DNA of 64,000 nucleotides, from assembly GCA_021904315.1 (NCBI GenBank), contig CM038910.1, forward strand, positions 930,001 to 994,000, written 5' to 3'. The notes under the pieces are model-generated. The model had not been told where the DNA came from and did no database searches. It worked only from the letters and a program-made list of their open reading frames with translations. Made by a program: the position numbers and the translations under genes. This DNA is from Sphagnum magellanicum. Taxonomy: Eukaryota; Streptophyta; Sphagnopsida; Sphagnales; Sphagnaceae. Below are positions 3,001 to 46,349 of the stretch, piece by piece (positions within the stretch are counted from its first letter, which is position 1; each line of letters starts with the position of its first letter).

Positions 3001-4603
3001 CTAGGAAATAGAATAAAAGTCTCATCAAATTGTGGAGTCACTTCACTTGAGCACCATGCACGTCATTTATAACCAACATTTTGCAACATGTTCTCAAGAG
3101 AAGAAAATTGTAACACAACATATTCTTTTTGTAGTGTGGAAGTTTGGGTATGTGATATACAAATAGGAATATCTAAAATCACAATTTGAAGATGACACAT
3201 TGAAAGAAAGATTACATGAAACTTTGAAAATCTCAAAATTATGGGTACATCAAATGAGGAGAGGTCAAAGAGGGTGAATATCAAATGAGGAGGTCTTGAC
3301 ATGCTTAAAGTGAAAAAATGGGCATGTTGTGTGCTGGTTATGTGTAATGTTTTAAAGTGCCCACAAAGTTCTTACATTGATGGTATAATGAAACCATCAT
3401 CTTTCCTAACTACTCTTGTGAACATTTATGCTAATTTGAAATCATCACCAATAATGCTTAGTATGGCATGAACTTTGTGTTCTACATCCACCCTATCATA
3501 TAAGGGCAAGATGAAAAGGGATGTGTCGCACATGTAATTTAAGAACATCAAAAGAAGGGCAACCACCATGGAGGCACACTTAACATAATGGTGACGTTAT
3601 ATTTTAGGTAAGAATAAAAATCAATACCAAAGAAACAAATATGGTTACAATTAGTAACTTCATCATAAAATTCTTGGGTAGTTTGACAATAATAGTCATA
3701 TGAAATCCATTTTTTCATAGGTTCATATTCTTCAAACATGGTAATCATGCAAAAAAACACATAGAAGAAAGGCGAGGGATTTTCATCCATAATAAAATCT
3801 CACATCTTACTTAAACATGTTTCATATGTGTTTTGACATCCATGTTTAAACAATACAAACTTATGAAAAAATAAAATTTGCATGACTATTATTGCCAAAT
3901 CTTGACTTAAGAAGTTTATGATTTTGAAAATAACTAGGGACCTTGGAATTTTAAATGATGCGGATTTAAAAATGAAAGTTAAATTTTTTTTGAACCTATA
4001 ATTAGACGTTTCCATCTTATCCATGGTGATTGGTTATTAAAATTGGTGAGGGTTAAACTTTTGTAAGGTGGTAATTATTTGCCTAGTTACTATTGTAATG
4101 TCTATGGTAATAATTACATCTTTATTTATTGTTACATGTTTTTATGTCAATAATTACCTCCTTATTTTTTGTTGCAAACCTTTTTAAGCACTTGATTAAT
4201 TTTTAAAAAAAATTGTGATATCAACAAAGAAGTCACATTGAAAGCATCTACTCTTGTTGCCTTCTACCAATAGCTACCACATTCACATAAACATTACACC
4301 TATTCTTCTTCAGTTTTTCCACCAAAAACACATAAAACAATTGTATTAACAAGGTATCCAAGTACACACAATGCAAAAGTGGGAGTTAAAATGTTGAAGG
4401 TTATGTCCTTAGTTGACCTCTACCTCCACCTCTTCCTACATCAAGTTAAGCTCCAAACAAACATTATTTTTTCTTTCATAATTAAAAAAATCTTTCATAA
4501 CATTCCTTTCTTTCAAAGTTATGCTTACAAACCCCCCACACATTATTAAAAAATAGTCCTTCTAGGTTTCAGTGGCCATCACCTCCTTCTAATTAAAAAA
4601 TGA
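1..4603. other. AT-rich gene-free spacer
   Basis: This stretch is very AT-rich with many poly-A and poly-T runs. I see no ORF above about 80 residues and no recognisable domain on either strand. No terminal inverted repeats or LTRs stood out by eye. It is probably old, decayed intergenic DNA. Confidence 0.6.
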
Positions 4604-5420
4604 CTAGTGTGTGCCCCGTGCATAATGCACAGGTGAAATAAAAATCCCACTATCTCCCCAAACCACAATCTCCCAATCCCACTTACCTACCGGCCCACCT
4701 ACCTACCTACCTACCTATCGACCTACCTACCTATCGACCCACCTACCTACCTACCGACGTACCTACCTGTCGACCTACCTACCTATCGACCTACCTACCT
4801 ATTGACCCACCTACCTACCTATCGACCTACCTACCTGTCGACCTACATACCTACCGACCTACCTACCTACCGACCTACCTACCTACCGACCTACCCACCG
4901 ACCGACCTACCTACCTGCCTACCTATTGACCTACCTACCTACCGATCCACCTACCTACCTACTACACTGGAGGGCAGAAACCTGTATGTTCCCAAATAAT
5001 TGCCAATAGCACCATTTTTTGACCGATCCTTTATTTTTGTGAGAAACATGGGTCTGGGTCAAAACCAATTTTTGTGATTTTGGACAACCATTGGTGAACC
5101 CCGTGCATAATGCACAGGTGTATTATTTCAACAATGTTTGGTTGATGTTTTTGGTTTTTAAAAAAACTTTTTCTTTTCAAACCACTATTGGTCCCCCCCC
5201 CCCTTCGCCCCGGTAAACTGACCCCTGGGGGGCAGTTTCATCCCATCCATGAAATCCCAGAACGGGGTTTTTTGGATTGCTGCCAAACACCGGTTTCCAT
5301 GGATCATAGTGGGCCAGAGTGACTGAGCACCCGTCCGTGAGCGGAGTTAAGGGAGGCTTCATCGTGCGGCTTCAGGGGCGGCTTCATTGGGCGGTACCAT
5401 CGTTCTTTTAATATATAGGA
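4604..5420 (-). mobile_element. Short non-autonomous Helitron (copy C)
   Basis: Read on the minus strand, the element begins with TCCTATATATTAAAAG at 5420, directly after an A. It ends with the tail CACACACTAG at 4604, directly before a T. These are the canonical Helitron ends: 5' TC, 3' CTRR, insertion between A and T. The 3' hairpin CCTGTGCATTATGCACGGGG lies at about 4615-4634, a few bases before the tail. A second hairpin copy lies inside, at about 5098-5120, followed by GGGTTCACC instead of the tail. The element carries no helicase, and most of its 3' third is a CTAC microsatellite. It abuts the 3' hairpin of the next copy at 5421. Confidence 0.8.
4684..4975. repeat. CTAC microsatellite with higher-order units
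   Basis: About 290 bases are built from the tetranucleotide CTAC/CCTA, broken at fairly regular intervals by TCGAC, ACCGAC or TTGAC. This gives a higher-order unit near 18-20 bases, of the form (ACCT)3-4 plus ATCGACC. The Thr-Tyr-Leu-Pro-rich reading frame across it is a by-product of the repeat and not a gene. It lies inside the short Helitron copy, between its two hairpins. Confidence 0.9.
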
Positions 5421-6090
5421 TGTGTGCCCCGTGCCTAAGGCACAGGTGTGTGTGGGAGGAGAAGCAAATTTTGTTTTGATTTTCCCACGTTCCTTCCTTT
5501 CCCTCTTCCTTCATGTTTTTCCTCTCCACCTTCCTTGGTATGTTTTATGTTCCCTTATGTTCCCAAATAATTCCCAATAGGACCATTTTTTAACAAAAAA
5601 CATCACAAATGTTGTTTTAAAATGTTTTACCTTGTCGAGTAAGTATTTCAAGGGAGAGGATATACCAATGCCCACTACCACTTTTTACAACCGTCGGATA
5701 TATGACACTGACATGGGAGATTAGTCCTCTCAGGAAAAATTAGAATACACCAAGATAAGTGAGATTTTCCGGGTCCTGGCGGCCTGATTTCGTATGGCGT
5801 CCTCTGTCCTTGGATATAGCGCCTGGATCTAATGTCTTTGCTGACACGTCTACATGAACAAGTACATAGCAGCAAGCTAGCTAGCTTAGCTGTAACGTCG
5901 TCCTCGTCTTTCCCATAAATCCTGTCTTTCCTATAATGTTGGCTTTGTAAAGGCGACTGTCCGTCCCTGTCTTTCCCATAAATCCCGTCTCTCTCTCTCT
6001 CTCCCATTGTCCATACTGAACGGAGTCAGGGGGAGGTTCTTTCGTCCGTACCGAGCGGAGTTAAGGGAGGCTTCATCCTTCCTAGTTTAA
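5421..6090 (-). mobile_element. Short Helitron-like segment (copy B) between two tail-head junctions
   Basis: On the minus strand the segment begins near 6090 with TTAAACTAGGAAGGATGAAG. Its subterminal motif GATGAAGCCTCCCTTAACTC is shared with the other copies. It ends at 5421 with the hairpin CCTGTGCCTTAGGCACGGGG plus CACACA. The final CTAG is missing: the next copy begins directly after CACACA. Inside are short direct repeats around TTTATGGGAAAGAC (about 5910-5990) and a TCTCTC run (about 5991-6004). No coding region is recognisable. The 5' end lacks a clear TC, so that boundary is approximate. Confidence 0.6.
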
Positions 6091-6258
6091 GCCCCGTGCA
6101 TAATGCACAGGTGTGTGTATTTGACGGTACATATTACAAAATGGTGCTCAATGATATTGGTCTTGCAATTATTTTGTTTATTTTAAATAAAAAATGTAGT
6201 ATGAATCCATTTTTGCCTGTGCATTTGATGATACATATTACAAAATTACACCTACCAA

Positions 6259-9200
6259 CTACATTTTGAAAACCTCTTTATATACAACATTCCGCATGTA
6301 TCCATCGGGACCCCGGCCATTGAAAATCTTAATGTTTGCACTACTTGTGACCCGTGAAATAGCAACATAGAGCTGACCATGGGAATAGATTGGAGACGGC
6401 AAATATACCCCAACGTTGTTGAATGTTTGACCTTGACTCTTGTTGATTGTGATCGCAAATGCCACTCGAACTGGAAATTGACGACGACACAAAGCAAATG
6501 ACCAATCAGTCCCGGAGGGGGACATGATGATGCGGGGTATGAACACACGTTTGCCAACATTGTTTCCTGTGATGATTTCCGCTTCAATGACACGCTGACC
6601 CAATCTTTTGACAATCAACCTCGTACCATTGCACAATCCTATTGATTGATTGAGATTACGCAACAAAAGGATAGGCACACCCACTTTGAGTTCGAGCTCA
6701 TGATTTGCGATACTGCTAAATTGCAAAGTGTCTAAAAATTCCACCGGATACAATGAATCCATTGAAACTCCTGCAGCAACACTTACACCTTCTTCTGTTG
6801 GAGTCAAAGAATTTGCGCACAAGTACGTGTGCGATTCTTCAGATAATGATTCTAAAATTGCATTGTTGACTTCGTCAACGTCAGCATTTTTAGGGGCTAG
6901 AATGATGCGTTGCATAAGATACATGGCATCTCCAGAGTGGCACCGGTGATCCGGATAGATGGTTTGGATTAATCCTCTTAAGCTGCAATCTTCTGCTGGC
7001 AGCCTCATATGGGGTGGAATCTTGATCCAGTCTGGATCGACACCTTCTTCTCCTGCAATGGCGGGAAGACTACCGTCTCCAACATTCAACACCCATTTGG
7101 CAAACTCTCGCTGCTCTTCAAAATTGGTTGCCATGACTCGCATGTTGATATGAAGACGAAGAATTGTAACATGCTGCCAAAGATACGACCGAAGCAAGGA
7201 AGCACTGACAATGTCTTCTTGTCCTGCCTTGGGAACCACAGGTAAGATCTGTCGAAAATCCCCACCAAGGACCATGGTTTTCCCACCAAAGATTTTCTCG
7301 GTTGCCTGTGCGTCATCAAACTGCATCAAATCACGCAGGGTGCGATCAACAGCTTCGAAAGTTCGGCGATGCATCATTGGTGCCTCATCCCAAATGATTA
7401 GATCAGCTTTACGCACCAACTCCGCCACTTTCATCTGTTGTGTGATGTTGCAAGTTGACTCATCGTGCAGATCAATCGGAATCTTGAATCTCGAATGGGC
7501 GGTTCTGCCGCCCGGAAGCAACAAAGACGCAATTCCTGATGAGGCAACTGCAAGCACGATTTTGCCTTGCCCTCGTAGACGGGACAGAAGTGTTGTCCAA
7601 ACAAATGTTTTGCTAGTCCCACCACTGCCATACACAAAGAACAGTTTGCCCTGTTTGTTTGTCACGGCATTCAAAACAATTTCGTATACGTTGCGTTGAT
7701 CATCATTGAGCCTATGTTTTGCATTGTCCGCATCTATGGTCAATGAATGTCGATCATAAGCCAATTCTTCTTGGACCAATCGATTTCCTCCATGAACAAA
7801 AGGGATGTAATTAGACTTAGGAAGAGTTGGAAAATCTTCCAGGCGGTGTCCATTGCGGATGAGAACCTGATCGATCTCATACAATGCACGATCCTTTAGC
7901 GCATCCTCAGGAAGGGTGACAGTTGGATCAACACACTCGCAGCGTGTCATTGCTTTAATGTCATCGCTCAAAGACTCCCAATGTGCATGCCATAGCTGTC
8001 TGGGATTCGTGACCTCACAAAACATCAACATGGAGGCAAACATGTCACGCAGCTGTCGTCCTGAAGCCCAAACATCGGCTTCTTCCAAGGCTTGATGCCA
8101 TTCATTGTCGTCTGCAAGCAAACCCATCGTAATGCATGCATCTTTGAATGTGTCGTGCTCTCTGCCATCCACTGTCCGCAAATGTTCGTAAGATGTGACA
8201 CCTTTGACGCAGTTCAACAGCATTCGCAAATAGTAACGTTCACCCGATGTCGGGTGTGCATAATACATGCGACCAATGGCAAAGCCTTGTTTGCGCAATG
8301 TCCATCGCTTCAACTTTCGATTCCACACCCATTGCTGAGGGAATTGATTGAATGTGAGGCTTCGTGCAACTTCCAATTCTTGGTTTGTTTTGAACCATTC
8401 TGTCAGCATCGTTCTGGAAATGGCTGACCGTGTTGCCACTTCCTGCACATCATCGTCATCGCGAAACAACACCATCTGCTGATTGGGCAAATGGTATTGC
8501 AGACGTTCAACGGTAGGAAACCGCTCATGCATATCAAACTTGAAGATGCGCCACGCTGCTTCCGATGCAGATACATAGCGACAGTCGAGATATTTTTTAA
8601 TTTCATCAATATCGACCACATTTCCTTCAGTGGCATTGTCGCTTTGGCGCGAAATCTCAACAGTCACACGATCATGTCCTTTATATACGTACTTGAATAG
8701 ATACTTGACTGCACGAATGTTGTTGCAGACTTCAACGTTGATGTGCGCATCGTATTTGGTCGATAAATAGACATTGTGCGGTACCACCCAACGATTGTCC
8801 AATTCAATGCCATGAACCAAAACTGTGTGCCCCGTATCTCTACGCCGATAAATAGGGTATCCATTTACATCCGTCACCGTTTCGGATTGGAACTTGCGTG
8901 GATATTGTTTTTTGCATTTGCCTTCTTCCATGCATGGGGCATTTGGGAATGCGGCTCCACATGGACCATGCATCGTGCATCTGACAACTGTCTCGTGGGC
9001 CAACTTGTTTGTTTCTGAACTCGGAAGTTTAGCACTGATCATGCGGTCCACGTCCTCGACCGTGTGTGGCTTGCAATCTTCGGTAAAGAAGATGAGAATG
9101 TGTGCATGCGGTAGCCCACGCTTTTGAAATTCAACGACATAGATTCCTGCAATCGTGCCTCCCAAAATATGGTTCTTGTGAATGTCATTGATGAACTCCT

Positions 9201-10952
9201 TCAGCTTGATTTTGAACACTCGGGTTACCAAATCGGGTCGATCCTGAGGTTGTTGTCCGAGTAGCAACGCTCTCTTGATTTCAAGCCATTGGGGATTGCA
9301 AGTGAATGTAACAAACGCATCCGGGCAGCCGGCCCATCTACATATTGCCATGGCATCTTGATAATTCTAAACCATGTGACGTGGACCTACTGTGAAAGAA
9401 GATGGCAGAATGATCCTTTGTCCGATGGCAGCAGCGCTAGTGTCACCTGCAGCGATGGCGTCTTGAAGGCCTTGATAAAGATCTGCGCGAAGTTTTTTTT
9501 GATTCAGGCGCAGATACTTCAAGCGATTTTGTTCGATAATCGCATAGGCATCCACAATGTATTGTTGCCGCAATCAGTGACCCCGAAGCAACGCAATGCC
9601 ATCGGTGTCTCGATGTTGAAGTCGATAACCATAAAATTCCGCCATTGTCAAATTGCAATGTTTTCTTTGAAGCTCAAATTTTCTCGCATGGTCTTCATCC
9701 AAATCTGCATCACCAACAACAACATTGACCAGAATATTCGGATGCCATCCATCCTCACCGTAAGGAAATAACAATGGATAATGTAGAGCCATGTATCCGA
9801 CATGTAGTTCAGAAATGTGTTGAAGCGGGCCAGCTTGCTAAGCAAGGACGAGGTCACGTCTATTTACAGCCTCTAACCACCTCCTACCATCAATGCAGCG
9901 ACTTCATCGGCCGTTGGCACATTGTATCGGCGGGCATCCTTTGTTCGAGAGGCAATGAGACGCAATTTCAGATCCATGGGAGCACCTTTTGTTGCCATCA
10001 TATCCCTTGCCATTTTGAACACTTCGACATAGGGATTGATATTGTACATCATGGTCAACAACCTATCCAACGTCGTTGGATCAAGCGAGGGCATAATAGC
10101 ATGCCGGTTTTGACGTTCATGTTTCGTATCATGAATGTACAACTGTGCAAATTGTGGCCGTTGTCCTTCGGCATGACATAGGGATCCGATTTTGTGATAA
10201 AGTTCACCTTGAATGCGAAAGGAGTACGGTCCAGGGCCTCCTGTTACCGAGTCATCAACTTTGGCACCGAGCGAAGTGAATGCCAACACCGAATTGTACA
10301 TGCGAATTTCATCTCGAAATTTGACGGCACTACTCTCTTTGCTGGTTAAAAGAACTTGCAGCTCTTGCGGTGTTGCAGGAAGATTCGGCAACAGAACTTT
10401 GCCATTTTCGCAACACAGAGAAAATTGTGGGTTGTTGTTCGTTGACTTTGCCAATCGTTCTTTGATCCACATTTTTGCGCTGCAAAACCCACATGTTGTG
10501 TCCATTTCTCCACAATCCCATTGTCCCGGGGCTGATGCATCTTCGTCTGCAAACAATTGTAATGCATCATTGCGAAGAAAAGGCTGTTCACGTTGCTTAG
10601 CACAGTGTTCTTTTTGCAAGCGATTGGGACGTTCCTGTGCAGATTCTGACGTGCCTTGAGGTGACGCATCTCCATCTCTAAACAATTGTAATGGGTCATT
10701 GTGAAAAGAAGGCTGTTCACGTTGCTTAGCACATCGTTCTCTCTGTAGGTGATTGCGACGTTCATGTGCAGATTCTAACGTGCCTTGAGCTGACGCATCT
10801 CCATCTCTAAACAATTGTAATGCATCATTGCGAAAAGAAGGCTGTTCACGTTGCTTAGCATGTTGTTCTCTCTGTAGGCGATTACGACGTTCATGTGCAA
10901 ATTCTGACGTGCCTTGCGCTGACACATTTTTGTCTCCAAACAATTCGAGCAT
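6259..10952 (-). pseudogene. Helitron Rep/helicase (RepHel), broken N-terminal half
   Basis: This encodes the rolling-circle transposase of Helitrons: an HUH nickase fused to a PIF1-type helicase. The downstream ORF (9351-6259, 1030 aa) is open. It shows the HUH motif LPHAHI (residues about 80-85), the tyrosine motif [10 protein letters not shown] (216-225), Walker A GSGGTSKT (about 575), a Walker B motif IIWDEAP, LGGDFRQ, and a complete C-terminal motif with NKSQGQT and YVAISRV. Upstream, the same protein continues through three stops (TAG at 9367-9369, TGA at 9574-9576, TAG at 9838-9840) and one frameshift near 9873-9890. It then enters a 359-aa ORF with a Cys-rich CGFC...CCENGK zinc motif and the region ending NPYVEVFKMARD. 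Each stop fits a C-to-T change of a Gln or Arg codon. As it stands the full protein cannot be made from one frame; the helicase part could be. Confidence 0.9.
10551..10940 (-). repeat. 129-bp in-frame tandem repeat in RepHel upstream ORF
   Basis: Three units of exactly 129 bp (43 codons) are seen. The anchor AAACAATTGT occurs at 10,551, 10,680 and 10,809, and a diverged copy at 10,938. Each unit encodes a charged, Gln-rich segment of the form DALQLFRDGDASAQGT-SESAHERRNRLQRE-KQREQPSF. Units differ by scattered substitutions and keep the reading frame. Confidence 0.9.
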
Positions 10953-13440: not shown

Positions 13441-13501
13441 AGGGAAGCTTCATTTGGTCGGCCTCACGAATATGCCCTCATCCTTCCTTTACTATAAGTA
13501 A

Positions 13502-16500
13502 TAGCCCATCCCATTAGCTAGTTAAAAATCCTTTAAGTATTCTATTGAAGTCAATTTAGATCCTAGATTAGTGGGTTCATCCTAGCCACCCGCCCACAAG
13601 TTCTAAAACAACTCATAAATTAGCTATTTCAACTCCTAAAACAAGGGAGGTATTTCCACATACGCATTTTAAAACTAGTAATAAGTTTGATTTAAATGGA
13701 TTGCCATAATAAATCATAATGGTAATTGTTCTTTTAATAATGCACACATCCTAAATTCTGACCTTCAAATCCATTGACTAGCCCATGCCCTACTCCAATT
13801 CATTGGCATTAAATAGCTCCAAGTTATTGGCAATAATAATTGCACACATAAAATCAATCTAGTTTGGTTTATCCATTTCATGCAACATCTCTTCATCATC
13901 TTTCATGGAGGAGGAAGATCTTGAAAATGAAATAGTCCTCCCAAGTGAAATATATTTTGCAAATGAAAAAAAAATGAAAAAAAAAAAGTGAGAAGAACCC
14001 ACATCTATCTTTTACTTTAAGGAGCACAACCACTTAATGTGGCATAAATAACCCTTTCGATTTAACCTCACAATCAAGCCACTAACCTTTAATTCAATTT
14101 GATGCACTATGATTTTTGGACTAAGGTTATGGGATTTAAGTTTATTTTTTTAGTTATGGGTTTGAATGTTAATTCTCAAACTAGGTGTTATGCATTTTTA
14201 GGGTAATCTTTTGGATGCATATTGCATGGTTTTGGGGGTTTGGGGCTAAGGTTTGGGCAAATGACATGAGTTTTTAGGTTTCAAAAGCACAACCTAAGGT
14301 TTTAAGTTTCAAAGTTAAGGTTTGGGCATGCAATTTGTAGTTTTTGGGTTTTAGGTTTTCGAAGTGCAACTTGAAGTTTGAGGCTTGAGGGTTTGGGTTT
14401 GGGAATGCGTGATTTGGGGTTTTTGGGTTGGGTGTACAAACATTGATATTAAAGCACTACAAGAAAACTTAGGTTTTTTAATTGGAAAGATTGGTCAAAA
14501 TACATCAAATTAAGTATTTTGTTGATTTCACCAATTAGTTATATTAAACAAGTTGATTTCAATATATCCAAGTTGGCAATTGCTCAAATCGACACATGCT
14601 TTTTCTACTAATGATTCTTTGAACCAATGGTATTTCTAACTGTTATCTTTTTTACTTGTCATATTGACTAATCAACTTGACCAACTATATTTTTGACTAT
14701 TTGTCAAAATGGCAATCAAAACAAATGGGAAGTTTGACTTAATACATAGGCATGGCCTAGATAGGTTGGTAAATATGTATCTAGGTAGGTAGGTATGTAA
14801 ACCTAGCCTAGGCTAAAACCGTAGCTAGTCAAAATAGACATATCATTTCAACAACAAGACCTCTAATTGAAATGACCAAAATTTTAATCAATTTGGATGG
14901 CTTGAAAAATTACGATTTTTTGTAACAAGGTTAAGGTTTCAACACATGATTATGGTTTTAGGGTTAAGGTTGGGTGCATATTTGGAGTTTTAGGGTTTGA
15001 ATATGCAACAACTAATTTTAAAGTTAGGGTTTTATTGTGTGATTTTAAGGTTAAGATTTGGGTGCGTGATTTGGGGTTTTGGGGTTTGGGTGCGCAACAC
15101 ATGGTTTTATAGTTTTGAGGGTTGTGCTTAAGGTTTAGGTGTGTGGTTTTTCATTTTTGGGTTTTAGGGTTTTGTCATGTAATTTGAAGTTTTTAAGTTA
15201 AAGTGTAAACACACAACTTGGGGTATTGGAGTTTGGGTGCATTACATGTGAATTTAAGGTTTTAGGGATTGACATTAAAGTTTTTATCTCTATTTGATAT
15301 TTTAAAACTTGGTGATGTGAGACATAGTTTAAGTTTATTAACCCCACATCTTGAAATGAAATGTTAAGATGTTTTTAAAAAATTGAATTGAATTGGGGCA
15401 TTATTGTTTGGGGATGTCTTGGTTTTGTTTAGAGGATAATGGAAGAATGTTGGGAAAGTTATTTTGATGATAATAAATGGTGAAGGGATGGCATGGGATA
15501 GTGGGTTGATGATAGGGAATGGTAAAGAACGATGAACTAATGCCATGCAATAATAAGGAATGATGTGGTGGTTAGGTATTTAATAATATTCTCATTTTCC
15601 AAGTGATGGATGAACATTGGAAAATATCCAAGTTGCCAATGGGATACACTATGGGAATTTGGGTGGAAGCCATGGACATAAACATTATTATTAATATTAT
15701 TAGTATTTTTTTGTGAATTAAAAACAAATGATAAGTAATGATGAAAGTTCCAAGTTGGATGCCATTGATAATTTTTATTTTTTTTTGCAAAGTGTGATGG
15801 ATGAATGATAGGGATGATAAAGGGTGTTGAGGGCTCAGGGTGTGTCAAGATGGGGTAAATCCAAACCTTCACTTAAATGGATAAATGTATATTTAGGTTA
15901 AAACATAAGGGTTTATTTTTAAAAAGTTTATTTTTGAGGGCTTGTCAAAGGGACAACACAAATGTCCTAGTAATGTTTTAGAGATGTTTTAAAAAAAACA
16001 TCCCAAAGTTGAAGATTTTTGTTTTGGGTGATTATTTGATTTTGTTTCAAAATTATAATTCCAAGTTTTTAATATTTTAAAAATCAAACAACTTCCAATT
16101 TTAGTTTTTTTGTAAAAAATTAAAATATCAAAATAGTTGGTTTTGGTTCTTGAATATTTTAAAAATCATTTAAGAACCTTTAGGTTTGGGTTTTTGAAAA
16201 TTTTTAGAAACTTGCTACGTCATTTCAAAAAACTATTGGTTTTGAATATGTTTTATGACTTGATTTTTTAATTTTATAAAACTATAACTAAGGGTGAAAT
16301 TGAATTGATGATTTTTTTTGAGAACCTTTGGTCAAGGGCCAAAATTGGGTCCTTGATTTCTGAAAGACATTGGTCAAGTATTTACATATACCAACCTATT
16401 TTTACTTGTTGGTCCCAAATTCCAAAAATCAAAATCAACGTTGTCCAATTATTGATTTTGAAATGAACATTTGGTTTGGTTTTTAAATTTTTTTTCAAAG

Positions 16501-16975
16501 TTATATTAGCCTTTAATGTGATTTTGAGAAAGGTTTTTTTGGATTTATAATATTTGCAAATATGTTTGAAGACTTCTCAAATACCTTGGGACAAAACTTG
16601 GTTTAAAATTAGGTTCAATTCCATCTACATTGTTACAAGACTAAAATTCAAAATAATTTATAATATAGGTTTGTTTAATTATCACAAACATTCAAAACAA
16701 AAGATTGCTTAATGAAATTGAACTTGCTTATGTGACAGTTGAAGAAATCATAGTGAAATGATGTTGAACTTGATTTTATTTATACAAATTGTAGGAATCA
16801 AGTAAAATTGGGTCAAGTTCTTACAATTTATTGAACATTTTCATCTCTTTGTAGTTGGAATTGCTAAAGATGTCCATGGCAAAATGGAGGTAGCAATTGT
16901 CGTAGCTTTTAGATGATCTTTTGAACTTCAAACTTGAGACATTGAAGCTACATCAAAGTGGAAATGACAAGGGAA
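13502..16975. other. Gene-free spacer with telomere-like degenerate repeats
   Basis: No coding region is supported. From about 14,100 to 14,450 and 14,930 to 15,260, the plus strand is dominated by loosely repeated GGTTTTAGGGTTTGGGTG(C/T)-type phrases, about 50-60 bases apart. They resemble the plant telomere repeat TTTAGGG mixed with other bases. The remainder is AT-rich with poly-T tracts. Confidence 0.55.
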
Positions 16976-17400
16976 TTACATATATTAAAGGAAGGATGAT
17001 CACCGACAATGGTCCTCGGTACGGACAGTGGACACTATGGCCCAACCGGCTGCGGGCGCGCGGAGAGAAACAGAGAGCGAGAGAGTGTGTGTGTTCAAAG
17101 TAACTTCCCCTGATTCTGAATGGTACGGACAGTGGGAGAGAGAGAGTGTGTGTGTTTGTTCAAAGGACCACAACCGGTGGTTCTTCGTCGGTTCTTTTAG
17201 GAAAGTAGCTAAATATAGTAGAATTCTGCTTTTCTGCCTTTCCTGCCAGCAGGGTGGGGGGCCAGCACGGGCGGGGGGGGGGGCCAGCACGGGCGAGGGG
17301 GGGGCACGAGCGAGGAAGGACTGGGCGAGGGGGAGCTCGACTGGTGCATTATGCACCGGGTTCACACACACCTGTGCCTTAGGCACGGGGCACACACTAG
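16976..17400 (+). mobile_element. Non-autonomous Helitron (copy D) upstream of IRX14-like gene
   Basis: The 3' end is canonical: hairpin CCTGTGCCTTAGGCACGGGG followed by CACACACTAG ending at 17,400, then T. A second hairpin, GGTGCATTATGCACC, precedes it at about 17,343. The 5' end near 16,976 reads ATATATTAAAGGAAGGATGA, matching the other copies, but TC is mutated. The inside contains GAGAGTGTGTGTG-type repeats, poly-G stretches and duplicated TACGGACAGTGG phrases. There is no coding capacity. It ends about 1 kb before the IRX14-like start codon. Confidence 0.75.
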
Positions 17401-41439: not shown

Positions 41440-44400
41440 TCAAGGAAACTGGAAACCACCTCCATTTGATTGTGCACTGCTTGAAGAAGAGCTGAGATAC
41501 ACCCACAGGAGAGAAATGATGACTGCCAATAAGCCTGACCACACATAAATAATGGTTGGGGTGCGACCGCGTCTTCCCATCAGACCTTTGGCAAAAGGAT
41601 AGAGATGCATAAGCACCCACAAGCTGAAAAAGACACCACCAAAAAGCTTGCTCCACTCTGGGGATGTGCTGTATATAGTGCGGCCAACAGCGACAGCAAT
41701 GCCAATCAAATTGGTGAGGATGATGGTGATGGGTGGGATAAAGAGAGATGACCATTTAACTGTGTATAAGTCTGCAAATTCATCATCTTCCTCAGCTGTT
41801 GACTTGGAGGTCAAGGTAAAGGAAATGTTGATACCCGCCACAACCTTGAGGATTCCTTGGAAGACAGCAGCAAGATGAGCACTTGTTCCACCAATGACCC
41901 AAAACTGCTCATTACGCCACCATTCTTCTAGTGTGATGTGGGACCACTTGACTTCAAGAACAGCAAGCAAGCAGAGGGTGATGGTGATAGTGAGCAAGTA
42001 GACAAGGAAGGAAAGGTTTAGGTTTTGCACAATAAACTGGCCTGTGAACAAGGACAGAGCAGGAAGGAAGCAGTAGACCAGTAGGAATATAGAAGTGAAG
42101 GGGTAGATCCCGACATTCAGGTATGCAATCCGCTGCAGGAACTTCAGACGGGTGCTTGCTAGCAATGCATTGTTACGTGAGAAGAAAATCTCTACTGAAC
42201 CAGTTGCCCATCGCAGCACCTGCAAAGATGACCATTCTGCCACTTCAAACCAAATGCAAACTGGAGCAAGGAAAGATAGGGGTTGGGAGTAAACCTCAGT
42301 TGGGCAAAAGAGTTTGATTGGGCAAATCATAGCAATTATTTGAGCAAAGAAAGAGGGAAAAGCAGTAAAGGAGTTCCTTATTACCTGATGCAGACGATCA
42401 GTGAGATTGATAGGGGCAGTTCCCCTGAAAGCATCGGGTGTAGTAACACAGTAAATGGACCTCCACCCACGATTATGCATGCGAAATCCTGTAACAACAT
42501 CCTCTGTGACAGAACCATAAATCCACCCAACACGACCACCCCACTCTGTCTTATCCTCATAGAAGGAAGAGATGACATTGATTGCCTCTGAAACCAAAGC
42601 AGCATCCAGTGGCTCCCGGGGAGCTGTAAGTGCTCCGGCAGGACGGCTATTTTGAACTCCAGGACCCGCCACAGGACGACCCTGGAACTCTGCCACAGGA
42701 ATGGATGCCGCAAACACAAGAGAGCTACCATAGCGTTTGGGCAGCATGGCTGCCTCCATCTCATCATCCTCATCACTGGTTCCTTCTGTCAGCCCTTTGA
42801 CTTCAATGTCGCGCTTCTGCCCCTTGGTCTTCTTCTCCTTACTCCTCTTACCCAAGCAGCAACAGCAGCACAAACAGTAACACAAGCCAGACCGGCCCCT
42901 AGGTGCATCAAACCCATAGAGGGCAATCCTGCGGAAAACACACCCAGTACCGACATAGACAGGTCCTTGCAGCCCATCCAATGCTCGCATATTTACATCG
43001 AAAAACACTGTGTTATGATTTGCATATCGATCATTGGGGTCCACGCCTTCAAACCGCTGAGGGAATTGGACATAGGAGATTGTGTCTCCACCCTTATCCA
43101 AGAAGAAGCACATGGCCTCCCGAATGGCCAGAGAGTTGAATATGTAATGATCACAATCCAGATTGAGGATGAAGGGTCCATTAGACATCACTGCACTTGT
43201 GCGCACAAGTGCATTCATGGCACCTGCTTTCTTGTTGTGGTCATAGCCTGGCCGCTTCTCACGTGACACATAGACCAGCATGGGCAAGCGTATGTCCACA
43301 TCTGTTGTATCAATCAGATTCTCCTCATCACTGCTCCCCATCAGTGGCTCACCTGTTGGAGGTGCGAGCATCACCTGGATGGCCATCAACCCACCACCAG
43401 ATCACATCAGCTCACATTCAACATACCCTCAGTAAGACATTGAGATATTCTGAAGGCTTGCCCTTGTGAAGATTGTGGACCTATCATCATGTGCGTACAC
43501 AAGCAACGAGAGGAGCATTGGGATCTGAACCTGAATGATGCCAGCATGGTCTCCACGTGCATGTTCCTTGCTAGGCTGCGACCATGTGCCTGGCCAGTGT
43601 GTTCCATCAGCCATCCATGTTGCTTTGGGGATCTTGAGTGGCTCCAATGGGTCACGACCACTCTCAAGCTGTGCCCTCTTGGCTTGGATCTCCTCATGTG
43701 CATTGTATGCATCCGAGCGACGACGAATGGCATCTGGCAAGCCATTGATGCGCACTTTGAACTCATCATACTCCCTTTTCACATGGCGACGATCCTTGAC
43801 AAAGTCAGGACGCACCTTGTTCTTGGTTGGATCCCCTTTCAGCAAGAAATATGTTTCAGGATTGCGGGGTTCGATGTTGTGTTTGCGACAGAATGGTACC
43901 CACACCCGAGCAAAGCTTGCTGCTTCAGCTAAAGCCTCAAAGGTAAGCAAAGCTCCACCGTCGTCTGACAGATAGCAGCCGAGCTTCTCGAGGGGATAAT
44001 CAGCTGCAAGGATGGAGAGGATGGTATTGGAGGTGGTGAGAGGTGGTTCTTTCTCTGGGTCAGCTGTGGAAACAAACACATCCACACCCGGAAGATCAGA
44101 TCGACCCCTCGGATTCTCAGCAGAAGGTGTCTCAAACTTGTCCTTGAGAGCTTGTAGATCTGTCAGCCGGTTGATTGGGCAGAGCTTTGGGAGCTGATCC
44201 AAGATCCAAGAGAAGGCAAACCAAATCTCGCAGACCACTGACATCCCCCATAGCCAAACTGCATCTGTGTTCTTGTGCTTGACTCTCCATGCCAGGAACA
44301 GAGCCAACACTGCCATCCGAATCACCACCAGCAATCTGCACTCAAAAGGATCCAGCAAGCTAGCTTACTCAGAACCATTGCAGATACTCCAGAAGCCCCA

Positions 44401-45559
44401 CAAAACCTCTCGACAAAACCTTTGAAAACCTCTCGAAGCAAAAGGAGGCGGAGGAGGAGGATTGTAACACATTGCCGCAGCATTGTTGTGGTGAATGGAG
44501 GAAGCTCTAGTACCTGTAAGGGGTGAGGATCTTGGCGGAGATGGCAAACTTGCGGGAGAGAGGACGTCTGATCTGGTCTTTGAAATTGGGAGGAATACCC
44601 AGATCAGGATTGTCGCCGCCGCCGTTGTAAGTGTCTTCAGTCGGCCACAACGCATTACCATAGCCGTAAGAGCCTTTGGTCTGGTACAGCCAGCGAGCGT
44701 GGTCGAAATCCGCACTGGATTGCGTGCTGATGATACCCGGTTCTGCGGACTTGAGAATCGACAGACGGCGCTCCGTCTTGGCACCACCATTGTCGGCACC
44801 ACCCGGCAGCGGCAATCCTCCTGATGTGCGCATGTCGTTCTCGGAATCTTCTTGTGCGAGGAGGCTGGGCTCCTCCTCGTCTGTGATCATCTTGTACTCT
44901 TCCTTGCAACCCGGGCATTTCCCAGAGCCATTCAGTGCATCGATGTAGCAGTCACGGCAGACACGGAATCCGCAGGAGTCGCAAGGTGTTATGTCGTTGC
45001 CTCGCTCATCTCTCATCGCTTTGCCGTCACAGCCGTCGACTGAGCACGTAGGTCCTCCTCTCGCACCTGCTAGCTGCGGATGGTTGCCTTCCACCCCGTC
45101 CATCATCTTCTCCATCGCATGGCCGCGAGGTTTGTTCTTGAATCCGCCCGTGAAGATCGCATTGGAAACGAATTGCTGATCGGCTTTGGCAGCGATGGCG
45201 GGATCCATAGGACGCACAGTGGGAGTGTTGGACATGAGCTGGTACTCGGGAGTAGCAGGGATATGCACCGTGTACAAAAACTCGGAGCCGATTTCGCTCT
45301 CCACTTCGCTCATCTCGCTCTCATCGCGCGACAAGTTCATGTAGCGTCCACTGGAGTTGTGGCGCCCGTGATGTCCCGGCACCACCGTGTTGTTACTACT
45401 GCCGCCAGTGTTGTTGTTGTTGTTGTTGTTGCCACCGCTACTGCCTTCCGTGGCGCCGGGTCTTGTGTTGTTGTTAGGATTCCCAGCTTGTTGTTGTTGC
45501 TGCTGCGCCATGTTGCGGAAGCCGAGCCCCCCTGTGGCTGACGCCTTGGGCGACACCAT
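41440..45559 (-). CDS. CSLD: Cellulose synthase-like D (CSLD) glycan synthase
   Basis: This is a plasma-membrane/Golgi beta-glucan synthase of family GT2, needed for tip growth and cell-plate walls. Exons on the minus strand are 45,559-44,514, 44,335-43,531, 43,374-42,385 and 42,219-41,440, with consistent phases, giving about 1206 aa. The N-terminus is Gln/Asn-rich, followed by the CSLD-type RING-like zinc domain (CSVDGCDG ... [13 protein letters not shown] ... CPGC). Two membrane segments begin near residue 349. Catalytic signatures are DDG (about 473), DCD (about 690), TED (about 908) and QVLRW (947-951). Six C-terminal membrane segments and the CSLD-typical end GGFQFP follow. The 165-base intron between exons 3 and 4 has no in-frame stop and is a multiple of three, so a naive ORF reads through it. 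The family consensus [17 protein letters not shown] shows it is spliced out. Confidence 0.95.
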
Positions 45560-46349
45560 CAGAGAGATGCCTGTTGCTGCTGCTGCTGCTGCTGAGATCC
45601 GATTCTCCTCCGATGATGATGATCACCCCTAAAGCATGAACGAATCCTTTCTTCAAATTCCCAATCTTTCTTCTACTCCTTCCCGAGTCCCTATACCACA
45701 AGCTAGATCTCTTGGCAGTTTACAATTTTCTTACGACTTCATGAGAACCGCATCCTCTCCTACTCCGACTTCTCTAGTCTCCTTCCTTCCCTTCCCTTCA
45801 CGTATCCTTCTCCTCTCATCTCACTGGAACAAAAAGCTGACTTGATTTGCGTACAGCAACTAGAGCCCAAAATTTCAGCGAATTTTCTTTAAAGCGCAAG
45901 AGAGAATTGCGGGAAGCAAGGCGATGAGTATCAGCGGCCGCGGCAGCAGCCGCGACGGTGCACGCGACGAAGAAACAAAGAAAGAAAGAAAGTCAGCAGC
46001 GAAACTCCCGTTCTCACGACGTGTGCACGTAAGTACGCGTCGACGCCAATGGGAACGCAGTCATGGGCCAAGTGGAATACGTAAACTGGGTCTTCGTCTT
46101 CCCGCGTTAAACAACATGCCCGTTTTATTTATTTATTTATTTTCCTTCTTTATTTTCTCTCGCTCTCTTTTTTACCCCCCTCTCACCCCCCCCCCCCCCC
46201 ACCCCCTTAAATCAAATTTCCACTACTTTTTTGGGGTTCTATTTATGTGGCGTAAACGGGAAGATTTATTTTTCGCAAAAAAACAAAATGGGAAGTGGAA
46301 CTAACCTACCTACCTATTTTGAAAGGAGGGGACTCTGGGTAGAGGCTCT

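Follow-up and report, generated by a model that had tools for sequence, protein, structure and literature searches.

The Helitron sequence at positions 13501–4604 on the minus strand of the window (the whole 64,000-nucleotide stretch analysed, C4:930001–994000) is best explained as a composite element to which 3′ modules were added serially, by end-to-end insertion and then terminator bypass, and which was inserted as a unit between A and T. We place the probability of this reading at roughly 0.85. The tail-to-head joints within the sequence are real, yet they were probably not formed at the present site, where the composite most likely arrived as one unit. The original prediction had described three copies of one element in the same orientation; instead, three different elements are found, the first of which carries RepHel and starts at 13501.

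Limits, copies and empty sites of the composite

The genome searched is a 439-Mb assembly of 31 contigs. On the minus strand of the window, a host A at 13502 is followed by a RepHel Helitron, E2 and E3 in turn, and then by a host T at 4603. The last segment ends in CTAG/T at 4604/4603, as had been predicted (a slash within a sequence marks the point of junction or insertion). The features of the region are listed below.

13501–4604, minus: composite Helitron of 8,898 bp that aligns collinearly with a copy on C5; neighbouring sequence unrelated on either side; two paralogous sites without the unit
13501–6082, minus: RepHel (autonomous-type) Helitron module with 5′ end TTACTTATAG, its own 3′ end GGGGCTTAAACTAG at 6082, and Pfam matches
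6259–9366, minus: 1,035-aa open frame that encodes a partial Rep domain followed by PIF1 helicase and Pif1 2B; frame interrupted upstream of 9366
6092–6113, minus: terminator hairpin 1, then CTTAAA and an intact CTAG (6085–6082); now internal
6081–5421, minus: E2, a 661-bp non-autonomous Helitron without its first 15 nt; head seen on its own in L021 and L025; 7 places with joint A
5427–5448, minus: terminator hairpin 2, then CACACA, with CTAG missing; now internal
5420–4604, minus: E3, an 817-bp non-autonomous Helitron with intact TCCTATATATTAAAAG head; free copy in L011; joint B at 2 places
5099–5120, minus: terminator hairpin 3, inside E3, then TTCACCAATGG, without CTAG
4655–4979 (approximate limits), minus: GGTA/GGTC-type minisatellite inside E3
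4614–4635, minus: terminator hairpin 4, then CACACACTAG and CTAG (4607–4604); working 3′ end of the composite

A second copy on C5 is collinear with the window from 13501/13502 to 4603/4604, and both copies have the A/TTACTTATAG start and the CTAG/T end. With gap columns omitted (115 in total), identity between the two is 98.24% in the RepHel module, 98.17% in E2 and 98.41% in E3, so that in this comparison none of the three segments is older or younger than the others. No related flanks were found when approximately 1 kb on each side was compared (best E 0.077). The same end bases, the unrelated flanks and the match of 98.2–98.4% in all segments indicate that the unit moved whole, and they support its transposition as a single piece past three internal terminator hairpins, which are thus carried within a moving element at two places with unrelated flanks. 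To this extent the failed 3′ termination suggested earlier does apply, though as passage through internal hairpins and not as the formation of a concatemer. The full composite is present in two copies only, so joint movement of E3 rests on a single pair; the C5 copy is followed by more Helitron sequence, and its 3′ flank is therefore not plain host DNA. A copy on C3 is collinear with the window only from 13501 to 5421, with E2 present and E3 absent, and its 5′ end lies directly behind CCCACACTAG of another Helitron.

The joined flanks of the window match two paralogous sites without interruption, at C5:5138775–5139015 (74%, query 13–258) and C12:19925841–19926036 (76%, query 60–256). The C5 empty site reads GGGATGGGCTA/CCATTTT, compared with GGGATGGGCTA/TCATTTT in the window, and agrees with it in 76 of 98 columns to the left of the insertion point and 44 of 56 to the right; the corresponding values for C12 are 70 of 98 and 40 of 56. 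The two sites, which are diverged paralogues and not alleles, are without target duplication and read A/C and G/C at the insertion point. Since they are only 74–76% alike and carry these bases, the A/T target is visible solely in the window's own flanks. It had been proposed that an empty site might reveal independent insertions. Both paralogous sites lack the whole unit, with which stepwise growth at a donor is compatible.

The RepHel module combines the Rep/HUH and PIF1-type helicase domains of a canonical plant Helitron. Pfam matches within 6259–9366 are to PF14214 (Helitron_like_N, 5.1e-35, partial, covering profile positions 99–191), PF05970 (PIF1, 1e-87) and PF21530 (4.5e-21). An uninterrupted RepHel frame was found in none of the three copies examined; introns or decay may account for this. 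The module begins with TT and E3 with TC, the latter being the textbook Helitron 5′ end. Upstream of RepHel lies a 372-aa open frame, for which no Pfam match was returned, and within it (10531–10945, minus) are three direct repeats with a 129-bp period.

Joints and terminator hairpins

At joint A (6082/6081) a complete 3′ end abuts an E2 head that is 15 nt short, to give GGGGCTTAAACTAG/GAAGGATGAAGCC; the free-standing E2 head, as seen in L021 and L025, is TTACATATAGTAAAG/GAAGGATGAAGCC. A tail-to-head joint had been predicted near 6090 and does exist, but the proposed 5′ end TTAAACTAGGAAGGATGA is not a head. The sequence TTAAACTAG is the tail of the first element (GGGG, CTTAAA and CTAG), and the next element starts with GAAGGATGAAGCC. 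Genome-wide, joint A is found at its seven places with up to 3 mismatches allowed (controls 0), and its CTAG is intact in six of these and reads GTAG in the other. E2 runs on from the RepHel 3′ region in all six places that were read at length (the window, L010, L018, L019, L020 and L027); for the seventh (L045 on C1), 100 nt were examined.

Joint B (5421/5420) reads GGGGCACACA/TCCTATATATTAAAAG and sets the E2 tail, without CTAG, against a complete E3 head. Here the original prediction was accurate: on the minus strand, the hairpin CACCTGTGCCTTAGGCACGGGG and CACACA are followed directly by TCCTATATATTAAAAG, which is the true 5′ end of E3, as the stand-alone copy in L011 begins A/TCCTATATATTAAAAG. 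The same search (up to 3 mismatches) returned joint B at two places, with controls at 0. Neither joint is therefore unique, contrary to the possibility, raised earlier, that each might occur once only.

Four hairpins lie within 4604–6113, where three had been reported; the one at 5099–5120 was overlooked. When up to 3 mismatches are allowed, the whole window contains the hairpin pattern 5 times, and it is absent from each of 100 shuffles. All four have a common 8-bp stem, with folding energies of −6.8 to −7.1 kcal/mol and z-scores of −2.06 to −3.55 relative to shuffles. The canonical arrangement, in which CTAG stands about 10 nt past a short hairpin, is present, and the full 3′ end pattern was located at 364 places in the genome (control 0). 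Of the internal termini, hairpins 2 and 3 lack CTAG; six of the seven joint-A places retain it at hairpin 1. The end at hairpin 2 reads CACACACTAG in L018, L019, L020 and L027. Hairpin 3 looks like the scar of an older tail fusion, which would make E3 itself an older fusion, because the sequence before this hairpin resembles the 3′ part of family members ending in TTCACACTAG.

Relatives and end-to-end joining in the genome

Relatives of the composite within the one genome form a series with no tail, with E2, and with E2 and E3. In the survey of tails, at least 40 places were scored and tails were read in 17 copies. In a tree of these 17 copies, built from 1,821 alignment columns in the 3′ region of RepHel, the six E2-bearing copies form one clade (94/90; 100/98 in a 13-copy tree). 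Five copies in which hairpin 1 is joined to the E3 tail (tail B) form a separate one (98/95). The window and C5 copies pair with support of 87/80 on the RepHel 3′ region and 99/95 on E3. The no-tail copies, L041 and L042, end with hairpin 1 and CTCAAACTAG and adjoin non-Helitron DNA; in L042 the base after CTAG is A, not T. The sequence GCACGGGGCTYAAACTAG is found at just 8 places in the genome, six of which are joint A and two of which are L041 and L042. In four further copies, which end with hairpin 1 and CACACACTAG, another and mostly shortened Helitron head begins immediately or 2 nt further on. The no-tail copies fall outside the E2 clade in a tree that is midpoint-rooted and whose forks for ancestral placement are unsupported; the no-tail form would be the ancestral one, and the series would run towards added tails. 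The arrangement of RepHel, tail B and E3 that is common to L012 and L015 (97.1% and 92.6% over two blocks) may represent another composite.

End-to-end joining is frequent beyond this lineage. There are 88 exact matches to one intact-head consensus, which omits other heads (E3's included) and shortened heads. Of these, 63 follow A, 22 follow CTAG and 1 follows C; the other 2 come after a tail whose CTAG has mutated to CTCG or GTAG. The 63 heads after A, together with the host A at 13502 and T at 4603, conform to insertion at A/T without target duplication. A total of 24 of the 88 abut the tail of another Helitron, where about 0.0004 such abutments would be expected by chance (a rough figure, derived from the AT frequency of the window). 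These 24 joints are not 24 independent events, because some were copied with composites: L031 and L034 have one joint in common, with 98.0% of 703 and 99.1% of 211 aligned columns identical, and their internal hairpins carry one substitution each. Counted by eye, the intact heads start with TT in 79 cases and TC in 9. A stand-alone 425-bp Helitron at 16976–17400 on the plus strand of the window, with an A/TTACATATATTAAAGG head and a CACACACTAG/T end, is a canonical insertion.

At five further loci with perfect joints (L031–L035), the neighbouring elements are about 78–88% alike over their main stretches or cannot be aligned beyond short or repeated stretches; in L033, a tail-and-head stretch of 63 nt is 95% alike. 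Locus L009 (4508–7008) runs counter to the present reading, having three E3 units with two homotypic and perfect CTAG/TCTC joints. Its units are 99.8% and 97.8% alike, the former value applying to two units over approximately 400 nt, and they cluster together. To judge from these sequences, L009 is a true same-element array, which could have arisen as a concatemer or by unequal exchange, and no other locus here is as good a candidate for a true rolling-circle array. L011 (97.3%) and L012 (96.1–98.0%) also contain several E3 units in a row, joined imperfectly. In an automatic tally of loci picked for similarity to the window, and therefore biased, 47 of 88 hairpins (distinct from the 88 intact heads) precede head-like sequence, and 21 of the 41 classed as 'other' are, by eye, of the E3 internal-hairpin type. 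L022 and L023, Helitron arrays about 20 kb apart on C19, have an identical 20-nt 5′ flank and are 96% alike over 3.6 kb; the pair is probably a local duplication.

Origin of the joints and relation to known systems

The composite was probably assembled as follows. A RepHel Helitron ending at hairpin 1 (GGGGCTYAAACTAG) would have come to sit tail-to-head with E2 via end-to-end insertion, and a later transposition, passing hairpin 1 and stopping at the E2 terminator, would have founded a lineage with E2 as a permanent tail. One RepHel+E2 member would likewise have acquired E3, the CTAG between them being lost, and RepHel+E2+E3 would again have moved whole, ending at the CTAG of E3, its product being inserted at the A/T site in the window. 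A CTAG/T joint without host bases can be made by two routes: an element may insert at CTAG/T, or at an A/T in which a host A precedes the T that opens a resident head. The final layout is the same. Where the upstream RepHel terminator is bypassed, the next terminator would be found at the neighbour's end, and the fusion would become permanent once CTAG (joint B) or the downstream head (joint A) was lost. The limits of the unit, the sharing of its joints, the joint movement of the C4 and C5 copies and the one-tail and no-tail relatives are shown by the sequences; we infer that end-to-end insertion made the joints, in the order given, and that terminator bypass moved the unit. Hairpin 1 speaks against the bypass account, as it was passed over although six of the seven joint-A places keep its CTAG intact. 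The 15-nt shortening of the E2 head also falls outside this account.

It is unlikely that the three elements inserted independently here, with E2 and E3 each landing beside a resident RepHel element. End-to-end insertion is frequent in this genome (24/88 heads), and an instance from maize comprises two different abutting Helitrons, one of them with presence/absence variation (PMC2267711). Moreover, if the E3 joint originated at C4, E3 may have been added there and the C5 copy would be its daughter. However, both joints are base-exact at C5, joint A is found at five more places, and C4–C5 divergence is equal in the three segments. Independent end-to-end insertion, which the original prediction had named as its alternative, is the best account of how the joints first came about, but not of their presence at this site.

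It is very unlikely that replication of one Helitron overran the 3′ end and that the resulting head-to-tail multimer entered the site in a single event, as the original prediction had suggested. Perfect joints between right and left terminal sequences (RTS-to-LTS) are described for Helraiser circles (PMC4778049), and L009, with its CTAG/T joints, as well as the repeated E3 units of L011 and L012, show that same-element units do occur side by side. Such a concatemer would consist of units of one element with precise CTAG/T joints. In the window, however, the segments come from different elements, one side of each joint is imprecise, and both joints recur elsewhere as inherited parts; at the perfect joints of L031–L035, too, neighbours are only about 78–88% alike or align poorly. 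A one-element concatemer was rejected for the window because its segments differ and its joints are inherited.

It is highly improbable that the joints were copied between C4 and C5 by segmental duplication or gene conversion, without transposition of the unit. Only two copies in one genome are available for comparison, but the 5′ TTAC and the 3′ CTAG bound the common block, sequence outside them is unrelated, there is no common host DNA within 1 kb on either side, and both paralogous sites are continuous; segmental duplication was rejected because the flanks differ. An assembly artefact at repetitive ends can practically be disregarded, for while repeats abound in the region, among them numerous similar hairpins and the minisatellite in E3, the joints were assembled independently on several chromosomes.

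A serially extended composite has close parallels in maize, where 28.7% of one Helitron class have several termini and CTAG was lost in 99 of 100 sampled internal 3′ ends, or pseudo-termini (PMC3288121). Maize elements such as helitron_mc2 likewise carry several 3′ terminators in one mobile element, their internal ends are often without CTAG, like joint B and hairpin 3 here, and their origin is explained by nested Helitrons that later transposed together. The kind is therefore already known. In the present case, by comparison, RepHel is carried, the joints are tail-to-head, a single genome holds copies representing the presumed steps, and the CTAG of hairpin 1 is kept in 6 of 7 places. The adjacent head-to-tail Helitrons at maize r1 are also different elements that meet at CTAG/T with zero host bases between them; either order of insertion fits, and both routes of insertion were proposed (PMC2267711). 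That case concerns one locus with line-to-line variation, whereas here many joints are seen in one genome and some have moved onward in composites.

Experiments with Helraiser have established that a Helitron transposase can bypass a terminator and form circles. PMC4778049 and PMC5876387 describe, for Helraiser and the de novo 3′ ends of bat Helibat elements, a terminator that is bypassed and a downstream one that is used, insertion of a Helitron against another's 3′ end, and perfect tail-to-head joints in circles. Bypass here is instead deduced from copies in the genome, where one RepHel lineage would have gained modules repeatedly. In Fusarium, Helitron XY and tandem copies offer a two-Helitron composite considered a source of new elements, but with non-canonical Helitron2-type ends and opposite orientation (PMC5148889). 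No staged RepHel series like the present one was found in the open-licence papers searched, which is not proof of its absence in print. With multi-terminus Helitrons known from maize, this staged series is the useful part of the result.

The gain of 3′ ends and the building of families in Helitrons are known mainly from bat elements, Helraiser experiments and non-autonomous maize copies. RepHel copies with no, one and two added tails, together with countable joints in one genome, provide natural material on terminator bypass, and hairpin 1, intact yet ignored, is a direct test case for what Helitron stopping needs. The frequency of end-to-end joints also bears on whether Helitron ends attract insertions. 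Tentatively, and with the odds against it, Helitron ends might be preferred landing sites, the transposase nicking at the A/T heads or CTAG/T tails of the family and so joining elements, in a ratchet that would supply RepHel with fresh terminators downstream of those worn or ignored. Were that so, composite RepHel lineages with replaceable tails would be a normal part of Helitron evolution in the host plant and not an accident.

Beyond the composite, the segment at 13900–16900 shows a strong strand bias (GC skew 0.379 at 14001–16000) and contains CCCTAAA-like motifs on the minus strand, with 5 exact occurrences in 3 kb. Frames at 41440–45622 (minus) match cellulose synthase (PF03552) and a RING-type zinc finger (PF14570), and probably belong to a CesA-type gene; a GT43 gene is also present in the window.
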